The notes under the pieces were generated by a model that worked only from the letters and a program-made list of their open reading frames with translations, did not search any database and had not been told where the DNA came from. From Kribbella sp. NBC_01245 (GTDB lineage: Bacteria > Actinomycetota > Actinomycetes > Propionibacteriales > Kribbellaceae): DNA of 64,000 bases. Shown one piece after another: positions 58,956 through 62,810 of the stretch (the first letter of the stretch is position 1; every line of letters begins with the position of its first letter). The DNA lies in contig NZ_CP108487.1 of the NCBI RefSeq assembly GCF_036226525.1, positions 6,014,001 to 6,078,000 on the forward strand. Reading direction: 5' to 3'. A program made the translations under genes and the position numbers.

Positions 58956-59843
58956 GTGACCATCACCAGTGAGATCCAGGTCGACGGACGTCCGGCTCTG
59001 CTCACCGTGCCGGCGGATGGGCCGGTCCGGGCGGGAGTCGTCGCCTTACATGGGTCCGGTAACCCGTCGCACGCGCAGCCGATCTTCGAGCACCTCGCGC
59101 AGGTCGCGGCGCCGCTCGGCTATGCCGTCTTGTCCTTCGAACGTGCGGCCTGGGATGCGGACGACGTGGACGTGCCGTTCACGGTGCAGACGGCCGGGGC
59201 CGTCACGGCGTACCAGCGGCTGCAGAGCCGGTACGACGTGCCGATCGGGTTCTGGGGTGTGAGCCAGGGGACTTGGATCGAGGCGATGGCCTCGCTCGAA
59301 CTGCCGGACGTCGCGTTCCTGGTGATGCTCGGTTGTTCCGGGGTCAGCCCGGCCGAGCAGATGCGTCATGCGACGGCTGAACTGATGCGCCGCAACGGGT
59401 ACGACGCTGAGGCCGTCGCTGAGGCTGTGGGAGTCCGTGATGCCGTGGCGGAGCTTCTGCGCGGCAAGGCGGACCGTGCCGAGGTGGACGCGCTGTTGCT
59501 GGCCAAGTCGGTTGAGCCGTGGTTTGAGCTCACTGGGCTGCCTGTCGATCTGGGGTCGCCACTGCCGGTGTGGCACGAGGTGGACTTCGATTCGGAGGCG
59601 CTGTACTCGCAGGTGACGTGCCCGGTGCTGCTGATCCATGGCGCCGAGGAGGAGAACCTGCCCGTGCCGGAAACTCTGGCCGTCTGGAAGCGTGCTGCCG
59701 AGATCTCTGGCAACAAGTCCGTAGAGACCGCACTGATTCCTGGAGTCGGCCACTGGCCCGGGACCCCGTCGCGAACTCTTGAGGGCATTAGTCCGGCCTA
59801 TGGGGACATACTGCGCTCCTACCTCGCGGCGAAGCTGCCTTGA
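58956..59843 (+). CDS. Alpha/beta hydrolase (dienelactone hydrolase / BAAT-like)
   Basis: A 295-aa cytoplasmic alpha/beta hydrolase. HGSGNPSHAQP holds the oxyanion loop, the nucleophile is the Ser of WGVSQGTWIEA, the acid is in IHGAEEENLPV and the base His in VGHWPGTPSR. It may cleave an ester, lactone or thioester; substrate unknown. A 34-nt gap with a Shine-Dalgarno sequence precedes the MerR-clamp gene, so co-transcription is possible. Confidence 0.8.
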   Translation: MTITSEIQVDGRPALLTVPADGPVRAGVVALHGSGNPSHAQPIFEHLAQVAAPLGYAVLSFERAAWDADDVDVPFTVQTAGAVTAYQRLQSRYDVPIGFWGVSQGTWIEAMASLELPDVAFLVMLGCSGVSPAEQMRHATAELMRRNGYDAEAVAEAVGVRDAVAELLRGKADRAEVDALLLAKSVEPWFELTGLPVDLGSPLPVWHEVDFDSEALYSQVTCPVLLIHGAEEENLPVPETLAVWKRAAEISGNKSVETALIPGVGHWPGTPSRTLEGISPAYGDILRSYLAAKLP

Positions 59844-59877
59844 CCTTCGAGTTGGTTGAGGGCTGAGGGTTTGGGGC

Positions 59878-60909
59878 GTGACCGAACAACTGCTCACCAT
59901 CAGCTCATTCGCCCGCCTGGTCGGGCTCACGCCGAGCGCGCTGCGGTTCTACGACGACTGTGGGCTGCTGCAGCCCGCTGAGGTCGATGAGGGCAACGGC
60001 TATCGCTACTACTCGCCTGAGCAGGAAGCGCGGGCCACGATGCTCCGGGATCTGCGCGAGATCGACCTGCCGCTGGCCGACGTGCGCGTCGTACTCGACT
60101 CCGGGCCATTGGCCGCGGCCGAGGTCATCCGGACTCACCTGCGCTCGATCGAACTTCGCGCCGAGGCCGCTCGGCAGGCCGCCGCCCGGATTCTCGCGGG
60201 AGGTGCCGACTCGGCGACGAGCGTCACCTTGGGTGGGGCCGAGCTTGCCAGTGCGATTCGGCAGGTCTCGCCGTCGGCGGCGACGTCTGCGTCGAAGTTT
60301 CCGGCGCTGACCTGCGTTTTGCTGGAGATCGGGCCGGATGAGGTCAAGCTCGTCGCCACTGATCGCTATCGGCTCTCTGTGCGCCAGCTGCATCCGAAGG
60401 CGTTCAGTGGTACGGGTTGCTCGGTGTTGTTGCCCGCGACGTCGCTCACCGAGCTCATCCGGACGCTGGCGGCGGAGCCTGAGGTAAAGATCGACGTGAC
60501 TGCCGACGGCGTCGCGATCGGCTCGGCGGTGCTGACGCCTGCGGCCGGCGAGTATCCCGCTTATCAAGCGATCCTCGACGGTCTCGATGCGCCGACGACC
60601 CGGCTCTTCGTCAATCGGCTCGCGCTGCTGGCGACGCTCGAGACGGTCACCGGGGATCTCGTTCTAATGACAACTCCGGTTGGTCTTACTGTCGCGGGCT
60701 CGGAACAAGAGATTGAGGTTGACGCGATCTGCACCGGTACGCCCGTCCGGGTCGGCTTCGATGCGATGCTGCTCGGGTCCGCCTTGTCCGCGAGCGTCGG
60801 GCCCGACGTACTGCTGGAGATCGGTGCCGTCGATCGCCCGGTCGTCGTTCGATCGGCGGACCAGGGCACGTTCACCACGTTGGTGATGCCGATCCGCCTG
60901 GACGCGTGA
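59878..60909 (+). CDS. MerR-type DNA-binding domain fused to a DNA polymerase III beta-clamp-like module
   Basis: A 343-aa protein. Residues 1-75 are a MerR winged helix (LLTISSFARLVGLTPSALRF, then GNGYRYYSPEQ), followed by a helix (~76-108) as in other MerR dimers. From 115 on it resembles sliding-clamp domain II (AELASAIRQVSP, FPALTCVLLEIG, LVATDRYRLSVRQL, PAAGEYPAYQAIL), and 240-343 domain III, ending TTLVMPIRLDA like the VMPMRL end of DnaN. Domain I is absent. In DnaN the pocket for partner peptides lies between II and III and uses TDxxRL and the MPxRL tail, both present. Regulatory role is inferred. The MFS gene begins in a GTGA overlap. Confidence 0.8.
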   Translation: MTEQLLTISSFARLVGLTPSALRFYDDCGLLQPAEVDEGNGYRYYSPEQEARATMLRDLREIDLPLADVRVVLDSGPLAAAEVIRTHLRSIELRAEAARQAAARILAGGADSATSVTLGGAELASAIRQVSPSAATSASKFPALTCVLLEIGPDEVKLVATDRYRLSVRQLHPKAFSGTGCSVLLPATSLTELIRTLAAEPEVKIDVTADGVAIGSAVLTPAAGEYPAYQAILDGLDAPTTRLFVNRLALLATLETVTGDLVLMTTPVGLTVAGSEQEIEVDAICTGTPVRVGFDAMLLGSALSASVGPDVLLEIGAVDRPVVVRSADQGTFTTLVMPIRLDA

Positions 60910-62276
60910 GCACCGCCGTACGACAGCAGGCTCTGCCGCGGTCCTTCCAGTACTGGCTGGCCGCTGCCTCGCTGTCCACCTTCGGGGATGTCGTGCTCTA
61001 CTTCGCCCTCGGCTGGGCCGCCACCGGGATCAGCCCGGGCCTGGCCGGAATGGTCCTGACCTGTGTCGTCATTCCGCGCGCCACCCTGTTCATCCTCGGC
61101 GGCGTAATCGGGGACCGGCTGGGCCCGCGCCGGGTGATGATCGCGGGGGATGCCCTCCTCTGCGGCCTGACGCTGCTGCTGGCCGGGGTGGTCGCCGTGC
61201 CCGGGGTGAGCCCGGCCGTACTGTTGATCACCGCCTTGCTCATCGGTTGCGTTGACGCCTTCTACTTGCCGGCCGCAGGAGCCTTTCCACGGCTTTTCGC
61301 CACGGACGAACAGTTGCCCAGGGCAATGGCTTTGCGCGGCACGACGAGTCAGGCCATCACGCTGGCCGGCGGGCCGTTGGCCGGTCTGCTGGTGGCGGCC
61401 ACCGGGTTGGTCGGCGCCTTCTTCATCGATTCGCTCAGTTTTGCCGTCTGCCTGGTGGTGATCGTTCTGATCAGGCCGCCCTATTCGACGCCGCCGCCGA
61501 CCGGTCCCGCGGTGTCCGTGCTCGCGTCCGCGCGGGACGGTCTCCGTACGGCCTGGTCGGATCCGATGTTGCGCAGCATCCTCGTCGCGGTTGGGCTCGT
61601 CGCCGCCTTCGTACTGCCCGTGTTGTCGCTCTGCATCCCGTTGCTGGCGCGATTCCACGGATGGGGGCCGGCCACGGCGGGGTTCATCTCCGGATCGTCC
61701 ACGGCCGGGGCGCTGCTGGTCACGGTCGTGGTCGCTCGCCGCGGAAGCTTCCGCCGAGCCGGCCTGGTCACCGGAATCGCGCCGCTGGTCATCGCGATGG
61801 GTATGGCCGCACTGGCCTTCTCCGCCACCCCGGCGATCGCTGTCGCGGCGGCGTTCGTCCAGGGCAGCGGGATCGGCCTGTTCACCGCGCATATGGGGCC
61901 GCTGTTCGTCGCCGCCACGCCACCCACCCACTTGATCCGGCTGCAGTCTCTGCTGGGCTTGGTGCAAACCCTTCCGCTACTGGTCGCCAACAACCTCATC
62001 GGTGCGGCGTCCGCCCGGACGAGTCCGCAATGGGCTCTGCTCGGTTGCGCTGTCGCCACGACGTTCGCCGCGCTCGCGCTGCTCTCCACCGGCCGCCTTC
62101 GCTCCGTTGGTCGCGAGGTGGACGGCGATGGCGCTGACAGTCCAGACCCCGGCCAGCGCAGCCATGGGGACGAGGTCGCCGCTCTCCTCGTGGAACAGGC
62201 CGAGCAGGGCGAGGTTGACGGCGGTGTGCAGGACGGTCGCGATGGCCAGGTTCGCGCCGCGGGCCGATCGCAATAG
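60906..62276 (+). CDS. MFS transporter co-translated with the MerR-clamp gene
   Basis: A 456-aa MFS protein with twelve helices to about residue 398, of the type with FGDVVLYFALGWAATG and GGVIGDRLGPRRVM (the drug-exporter/enterobactin-export-like subgroup). The remaining ~58 residues (REVDGDGADSPDPGQ...) are hydrophilic and antisense to the convergent CPBP gene, so they are probably not a domain. GTG 60906 overlaps the MerR stop by 4 nt. Likely an exporter under control of the MerR-clamp protein. Confidence 0.82.
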   Translation: MSTAVRQQALPRSFQYWLAAASLSTFGDVVLYFALGWAATGISPGLAGMVLTCVVIPRATLFILGGVIGDRLGPRRVMIAGDALLCGLTLLLAGVVAVPGVSPAVLLITALLIGCVDAFYLPAAGAFPRLFATDEQLPRAMALRGTTSQAITLAGGPLAGLLVAATGLVGAFFIDSLSFAVCLVVIVLIRPPYSTPPPTGPAVSVLASARDGLRTAWSDPMLRSILVAVGLVAAFVLPVLSLCIPLLARFHGWGPATAGFISGSSTAGALLVTVVVARRGSFRRAGLVTGIAPLVIAMGMAALAFSATPAIAVAAAFVQGSGIGLFTAHMGPLFVAATPPTHLIRLQSLLGLVQTLPLLVANNLIGAASARTSPQWALLGCAVATTFAALALLSTGRLRSVGREVDGDGADSPDPGQRSHGDEVAALLVEQAEQGEVDGGVQDGRDGQVRAAGRSQ

Positions 62277-62810
62277 CGCGCCGAGGACGACCGAGATCGC
62301 GACGGCCATCACGACGAACAGGGTCATGTACGCCAACCCTTGGGCGAAGCCGCCGATGTGCCAGAAACCCCAGAGCAGACCGACGATCAGCGACGAGCGC
62401 AGCACGGTGAAACGTGTCTGCAGGTAGGGCTGGAGGTACGCGCGCCAGCCCAGCTCCTCACCGGCTGAGCCGATCGTCATGGTCAGCACCAGCGCCCACC
62501 AGGGAAAGGCCGGCGCGGTCCGGATCGGCTCTCCGGCGATCAGCAGCACGGCCGCCGTGACCAGCATCGCGGCGGCCGTGATGCCGACGGCCAGTCCGGA
62601 CCGGGCGAGCATCGGCCCGACCGGCGTGAAGCGGGCTGCGACGCGCGTGCTCCTTCGGAAGAGCAGCCACATCACGCCGACTCCCAGGGCGGGCGCGAAC
62701 TGAACCAGCTGGAGGAGATCGGGATCCGGTCCGGCCGAGGTCTGCAATGCGACCAGGCCACCGGAGAACAGGAGAGTGACCAGATAGAAGGCGAATACCT
62801 TGACGAACAT
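61977..62810 (-). CDS. CPBP family intramembrane glutamic endopeptidase
   Basis: A 277-aa membrane protease of the CAAX/bacteriocin-processing type. Catalytic residues are in EELGWRAYLQPY (E118, E119, R123), FWHIGG (H151) and HTAVN (H195, N199). Eight helices are predicted to ~235. The last ~42 residues (GGEQRERGERRGDSATEQSP) are hydrophilic and antisense to the end of the MFS gene. It lies 9 nt downstream of the TetR gene on the same strand and is probably controlled by it. Confidence 0.85.
   Translation of the reverse strand: MFVKVFAFYLVTLLFSGGLVALQTSAGPDPDLLQLVQFAPALGVGVMWLLFRRSTRVAARFTPVGPMLARSGLAVGITAAAMLVTAAVLLIAGEPIRTAPAFPWWALVLTMTIGSAGEELGWRAYLQPYLQTRFTVLRSSLIVGLLWGFWHIGGFAQGLAYMTLFVVMAVAISVVLGALLRSARGANLAIATVLHTAVNLALLGLFHEESGDLVPMAALAGVWTVSAIAVHLATNGAKAAGGEQRERGERRGDSATEQSPLRTRPGGRRTDEVVGDQ

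Follow-up and report, generated by a model that had tools for sequence, protein, structure and literature searches.

BmrR, a transcriptional regulator of the MerR family, controls Bmr, an exporter of the major facilitator superfamily (MFS). MerR regulators activate promoters with a 19- to 20-bp spacer upon exposure to heavy metals or drug-like compounds, and EcmrR activates a 19-bp-spacer promoter (PMC8113463). The effector domain of BmrR is GyrI-like (PMC7762955). In TipA and AlbA, a MerR head and a coiled coil are followed by a C-terminal effector; both proteins respond to a drug and capture it, and AlbA has its own 19-bp-spacer promoter (PMC7762955, PMC10189885). DnaN, the replication sliding clamp, is a target of natural products: the griselimycin and mycoplanecin clusters carry DnaN genes (griR and mypR) that are taken to give self-resistance, and R365 of E. 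coli DnaN hydrogen-bonds mycoplanecin A (PMC10817943). The window considered here, a whole stretch of 64,000 nucleotides from Kribbella sp. NBC_01245 (NZ_CP108487.1, positions 6,014,001 to 6,078,000), encodes a 343-residue protein in which a MerR head is fused to a half that resembles DnaN domains II and III (the clamp half). On balance, we believe this regulator to be a local self-activating sensor of the MerR type, whose effector would be a retired sliding clamp and whose ligand would bind in the old clamp pocket.

The regulator resembles TipA and AlbA in having a MerR head, a coiled coil, and a C-terminal effector, but this effector is a pair of DnaN domains II and III, not TipAS or the AlbA ligand-binding domain. 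Unlike in the TipA class, no internal start with a Shine-Dalgarno-like motif, from which a short form could be made, was found in the window gene. With BmrR and EcmrR the regulator shares the MerR activator logic, whereas its effector is clamp-derived and that of BmrR is GyrI-like. Its clamp half folds like domains II and III of DnaN (Z 29), with which it has nine of the 12 positions of pocket subsite I in common, but the regulator lacks domain I and the ring-interface segment and is fused to a DNA-binding head. GriR and MypR would be comparable as spare clamps tied to clamp-directed drugs, if the pocket of the regulator acts as a decoy for such drugs; they are described (PMC10817943) as DnaN-encoding cluster genes and not as regulators, and are set apart by that description. 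The features of the regulator are as follows.

59878..60909, + strand: MerR-clamp regulator, 343 residues, a single open reading frame (ORF) with a GTG start (Pfam and NCBIfam matches, AlphaFold2 model)
59896..60099, + strand: MerR winged helix-turn-helix (HTH), residues 7-74 (Pfam MerR_1; helices in the AlphaFold2 model)
60106..60204, + strand: long helix, residues 77-109 (AlphaFold2 model), the expected MerR dimerisation coiled coil
60211..60903, + strand: clamp domains II and III, residues ~112-342 (Pfam, NCBIfam, structure comparison, alignment)
60778..60903, + strand: most constrained stretch outside the HTH, residues 301-342, to the C-terminal VMPIRL (column entropy)

The fusion architecture is not hidden, because Pfam picks up both halves. 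MerR_1 matched residues 7-74 (8.5e-15) and DNA_pol3_beta_2, which represents clamp domain II, matched residues 120-213 (7.1e-13), both above the cut-off; the match of clamp domain III at residues 274-340 was weak (0.012, below the cut-off). The NCBIfam DnaN model matched residues 114-341 with its positions 125-367 (3.4e-19), at 69 bits, which is below the equivalog cut-off of 137.65 bits. When solved structures were searched with phmmer, the head retrieved MerR entries and the remainder DnaN entries, the best of the latter being 7rzm over residues 113-341. An earlier note, made from the letters of the stretch, had read the protein as a MerR winged helix followed by a DnaN-like remainder; the profile matches bear this out, and the landmarks LVATDRYRLSVRQL, GEYPAYQAIL, and VMPIRL were all found. 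Up to E = 1, no Pfam match to TipAS or to GyrI-like domains was obtained in the effector region, where clamp models match instead. By its defining features in silico, the regulator is a member of the MerR family, and the helix of residues 77-109 is expected to be its dimerisation element, by analogy with that family. It is not a sliding clamp, as two defining features, a chain of three domains and the ring-interface segment, are absent.

The AlphaFold2 model was built from an alignment of 56 family members that contained no DnaN sequence, and had a mean pLDDT of 94.7 and a pTM of 0.79. The best Foldseek value against solved clamps was 4.5e-17. A superposition of the clamp half on DnaN domains II and III, proposed in the earlier note, succeeded in VIA-align over residues 109-342; the three best matches had a Z of 29.2 and a root-mean-square deviation of 1.9-2.3 Å over 226-228 residues. 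In 49 of the 50 matches listed, the matched part of the DnaN chain ran from residue 120-134 to the C-terminus; the remaining match was to a clamp-MutL fusion. Clamp domain I, already presumed lost, is absent from the regulator, and the model comparison left no residues to spare for it. Clamp-peptide complexes (8djq, 8dk9, and 6fvn) were among the best structural matches, and natural-product complexes (5ah2, 5agu, 6pth, 8ciy, and 8ciz) were also matched, as is expected of any DnaN-like fold.

The ring-closing parts of the clamp were compared in a merged MAFFT alignment. E. coli positions 272-275, which include the ring-interface residues I272 and L273, have no counterpart in any of the 56 members; a counterpart of 272-274 is present in 30/30 actinobacterial DnaNs. 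Between positions 264 and 282, every member has fewer residues than DnaN (8-17 vs 18). The E. coli clamp variant I272A/L273A is monomeric (PMC11139829). Because domain I is absent and the I272/L273 segment is missing in all members aligned, the regulator is unlikely to form a clamp ring. The three-subunit ring envisaged in the earlier note was set aside for the missing interface segment.

The pocket was compared between the 56 family members and 30 actinobacterial DnaNs, using the pocket positions of E. coli DnaN given in a review (PMC11139829). The 56-row family alignment omits near copies and unusually long or short loci. Nine of the 12 positions of subsite I are kept in 52-56 of the 56 members, in the commonest actinobacterial DnaN letters: L155, T172, R for G174, Y for H175, R176, L177, P242, L for V360, and M362. 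The regulator's own residues at these positions are L144, T161, R163, Y164, R165, L166, P227, L335, and M337, with P338 in subsite II. At the V247 position, every one of the 56 members has a hydrophobic residue (I, V, M, or L); the R152 and R246 positions are variable, and they are also occupied by residues other than R in the 30 DnaNs. Among the subsite II positions, M362 and P363 are unchanged in 56/56 members, H175 is Y in 53/56, and V prevails at the M364 position, in the family and in DnaN alike. This comparison indicates that subsite I, the deep half of the pocket, has been largely retained and that subsite II has diverged. The reading in the earlier note that the pocket was kept is supported, with the refinement that N320, Y323, and R365 of subsite II have changed in many members. 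Mean entropy was lower in pocket columns than in other clamp columns (1.02 vs 1.70 bits; p = 0.0027, 10,000 random column sets), and the same contrast is stronger in DnaN itself (0.36 vs 1.12 bits). At 0.98 bits, mean column entropy over residues 301-342 is close to that of the HTH (0.97 bits), compared with 1.70-1.97 bits for the coiled coil, for domain II, and for the beginning of domain III. In four Kribbella members (L074-L077), query residues 130 and 144 (E. coli 142 and 155) are separated by long inserts of ~60 to 136 residues.

A predicted promoter/operator, which went unnoticed in the earlier note, lies upstream of the gene.

59840..59870, + strand: predicted MerR-type promoter/operator, with -35 TTGACC at 59840-59845, a 19-bp spacer, and -10 GAGGGT at 59865-59870

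The start codon follows 7 bases past the -10, and the spacer contains a partial dyad (60% complementary over 13 pairs). TTGACC[TC]T[CT] was present in 99 of 102 distinct upstream regions of family members. When these 99 regions were aligned, A20 occurred in 99, A27 in 97, and T31 in 99, none of which was demanded by the search pattern. The constant letters describe a -35 element followed by a 19-bp spacer and then a -10 of the form NAnnnT. The start codon is at position 39 of the pattern in most regions, and because of this spacing the transcript from the family promoter is probably leaderless. The pattern was missed in L100, L142, and L154; L142 and L154 have a single-letter variant 39 bases ahead of the called start, and in L100 nothing resembling the operator was found within 400 upstream bases. 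In an even sample of the class, TTGACC[TC]T was present in 27 of 30 regions (the own genome being L163 there), and two more carry TTGACTCT; in the last, the match begins inside the gene, hence it gives no verdict.

The strict operator pattern occurs once in the 8,679,014-base genome and was not found in the reversed control; the window site, allowing up to 3 mismatches, also occurs once genome-wide. With the operator found once in its own genome, a role as a global replication or SOS regulator was unsupported. A pattern built from Streptomyces sites was found in 4 of 49 genomes (28 with the gene and 21 without), always just before the gene. Its absence from the 21 gene-free genomes carries little weight, since 24 of the 28 gene-bearing genomes were missed too; direct reading of the upstream regions showed this pattern to be too strict. 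The operator is directly preceded by an alpha/beta-hydrolase-like gene (58956-59843, + strand; Pfam matches below the cut-off), whose stop codon sits within the -35 TTGACC. Of 44 loci compared, 8 have a homologue of this gene upstream of the regulator.

The MerR-clamp fusion is an established family, which answers the question, raised in the earlier note, of whether it is conserved. In the genus Kribbella, 34 of 37 genomes carry the fusion (own included), and the other three (G003, G015, and G022) have MerR-head matches alone at the cut-off used. In several of the 34 genomes the match is in two pieces, some through an insert; in G001 the gene is split over two contigs (L080 and L081). In the rest of the order, the fusion is full length in 2 of 21 genomes (G049 and G052). 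In the even class sample, where full length means a match from model position <=6 to >=346, it is full length in 29 of 394 genomes (own included), which are spread over nine families; one of the 29 (G245) has an internal stop, and a thirtieth match begins at position 34. In a draw from the phylum, 6 of 198 genomes matched at 1e-45, all from the same class. Plasmid records of Streptomyces, Kitasatospora, and Embleya also carry the fusion, and of 70 records matched, 9 reach a query coverage of 80% or more; five annotated plasmid entries name it 'MerR family transcriptional regulator'. A set of named genomes, consisting of the 80 best-scoring loci from a scan with two peptide patterns and not a census, included Kribbella, Streptomyces, Saccharopolyspora, Amycolatopsis, Prauserella, Rhodococcus, Flexivirga, and others. 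No account of the MerR-clamp fusion was found among the papers listed by literature searches aimed at it; as far as these searches go, a clamp-type effector on a MerR regulator is undescribed.

The clamp half is 29.7% identical to the DnaN of its own genome over 229 positions, the highest value among the DnaNs compared, vs 21.4% to E. coli DnaN. Because it is nearer to actinobacterial than to E. coli DnaN, the clamp half was likely recruited from an actinobacterial dnaN. What we take to be the housekeeping DnaN of this genome (L082) is located elsewhere, between ORFs recognised by eye as dnaA and gnd/recF. A second DnaN-like match at 1e-30 was seen in 8 of 60 class genomes (G067, G073, G075, G093, G094, G095, G110, and G111). 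On the Streptomyces plasmid pADI95-16b (L040 1-5487), the MerR-clamp gene is preceded, at a distance of a few genes, by genes whose annotations read Ku, DNA polymerase III alpha (dnaE), and hypothetical protein. One record (L094), which bears the name Streptomyces sp. SID13031, shares its gene order with Kribbella and falls together with Kribbella in the tree; it is probably misnamed.

The gene directly downstream in the window encodes an MFS transporter.

60906..62276, + strand: MFS transporter, with a 4-base overlap with the regulator (MFS_1 7.5e-28, above the cut-off; TIGR00900 3.3e-33, below the cut-off)

The nearest named model for this gene is TIGR00900 (H+ antiporter). Its ORF shares 300 bases (61977-62276) at the 3' ends with a convergent CAAX-protease-like ORF (61977-62810, - strand). 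Neighbouring genes were called with a simple codon-composition gene caller, a non-standard program. Of 34 evaluable Kribbella loci, 23 have an MFS gene immediately downstream, with a 4-base overlap in all 23, and 11 are without it there; L080 was taken as without MFS, and L081 was not evaluable (contig end). Outside the genus it was found in two loci, G049 (35 bases away) and Flexivirga caeni (4-base overlap). In the named set, neighbours were counted at 76 loci (L110, L131, and L133 were not caught by the gene caller, and L147 has no downstream gene in its stretch), with the record Streptomyces sp. SID13031 placed with Kribbella. The coupling to an MFS gene stated in the earlier note applies to part of the genus and does not extend to the other 60 of the 61 non-Kribbella loci. 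MFS as a universal partner was rejected: at most non-Kribbella loci the neighbour is a tetratricopeptide repeat (TPR) gene or another gene, or no co-directional gene is near.

In a tree made quickly from 84 selected rows, 20 from the 44 loci mentioned above and 64 from the 77 with a called gene in the named set (near copies and broken or cut rows mostly omitted, L080 and L081 excluded), there were 45 rows labelled TPR, 8 MFS, 7 other, and 24 none. The label 'none' covers genes more than 200 bases off, opposite-strand genes, and contig ends; 27 of the 80 branches were open, with long-branch warnings. The TPR partner (L096:8106-8759 and its homologues) belongs to an unnamed family with an all-helical model (pLDDT 94.4). 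Only generic TPR matches were obtained: the best Foldseek value was 6.8e-4, Pfam TPR matches were below the cut-off, and an NsdA-family model matched at 0.0036, also below the cut-off. Because the downstream gene differs among loci, the regulator and its operator are the constant part of the system, and partners come and go.

In the mechanism that we favour, a dimer of the regulator would sit on its own promoter. A ligand entering the old clamp pocket would rearrange the clamp half and the DNA-binding half, and the regulator would then distort the over-long spacer and turn on its own operon. In the Kribbella genome studied, the coupled MFS exporter would be co-produced with the regulator. In partner-free members the regulator would be the sole product, which would fit ligand capture of the kind known from TipA and AlbA. 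Candidate ligands are natural products directed at the clamp, peptides that bind it, or something new. We lean towards a foreign compound, given that there is one operator, that the family is patchily distributed, and that an exporter is coupled to the regulator.

Several observations weigh against this mechanism. The partner is inconstant: the 61 non-Kribbella loci of the named set have TPR in 43, MFS in 1 (Flexivirga caeni), and other genes in 7, and the remaining 10 have no co-directional gene within 200 bases (9 opposite strand, 1 far). The 102 upstream regions include many close relatives, and their counts are not independent. Subsite II is altered, with N320 replaced by D in 40/56 members, Y323 by V or L in 51/56, and the V344 position variable; R365 is retained in just 31/56. 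The conserved residues 301-342 could serve contact with the MerR half instead of a ligand. An in-frame internal start with a Shine-Dalgarno-like motif occurs in 48 of 75 loci (22 of 75 in the +1 frame), at scattered places; a TipAS-like short form made in this way was rejected, as the window gene has no such start and the family no conserved place for one. The changes in subsite II, together with the constancy of residues 301-342, also warn that the ligand may differ from all known clamp ligands.

As a special case of the favoured mechanism, the pocket could imitate the target of clamp-directed natural products such as griselimycin, mycoplanecin, or their relatives, whose binding would lead to export and to more decoy. 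We regard this as a tentative possibility. Griselimycins and mycoplanecin A bind the DnaN pocket and their clusters carry a DnaN gene (PMC10817943); the MFS partner is of the drug-exporter type, the spread is patchy and includes plasmid records, and natural-product clamp complexes are among the structural matches, though any DnaN-like fold would retrieve them. However, the family does not keep R365 and other residues of subsite II in all its members. The conservation of residues 301-342 also argues against a decoy, because it suggests one constant ligand, whereas few clamp-directed drugs are known. That the decoy clamp answers clamp-directed antibiotics by making more of itself, together with an exporter in some lineages, is in our view doubtful. 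Alternatively, the pocket might read free clamp-binding proteins or peptides, as proposed in the earlier note (DnaE1, DnaE2, ImuB, polymerase IV, and similar), and report on replication or repair. The clamp-peptide complexes among the best structural matches are in keeping with such a role, but one operator was found genome-wide, the predicted operon contains no repair gene, most class genomes lack the fusion, and N320 and Y323 are changed in the part of subsite II where the conserved Gln of the binding motif sits (PMC11139829); we consider this explanation unlikely.

The clamp half might also be a mere scaffold, for dimerisation or for a new, unrelated small-molecule site, with the pocket kept for folding. 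P227, L144, and similar residues may be structural, and R247, G308, R325, and S326, which lie outside the listed pocket, are family-specific and invariant or nearly so. Yet the pocket columns are more conserved than the remaining clamp columns, and more variation is seen in the coiled coil, in domain II, and at the beginning of domain III; we judge this explanation quite unlikely. Finally, the clamp half could join the housekeeping DnaN or DNA in clamp fashion, in a mixed or three-subunit ring, and so couple transcription to passing forks. Its DnaN homology is clear, with the top identity to the DnaN of its own genome; nevertheless, the absence of domain I, the I272/L273 segment missing throughout the family, and the monomeric state of the corresponding E. 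coli variant make fork coupling highly improbable.

MerR regulators have been described with metal sites and with TipAS or GyrI-like effector domains; a sensing end derived from a replication clamp would add another kind. It would show how an essential replication protein can become a sensor by losing its ring parts and keeping its pocket. With a compact promoter that was found a single time in the genome, the ligand question suits a simple reporter. Should the ligand be a clamp-binding peptide, the family would provide a direct link from the replication machinery to transcription. Should a clamp-directed drug be the ligand, the family could help to find producers of such compounds, and, if the pocket is indeed a decoy, clamp-directed natural products would be far commoner in soil than the few that are known.
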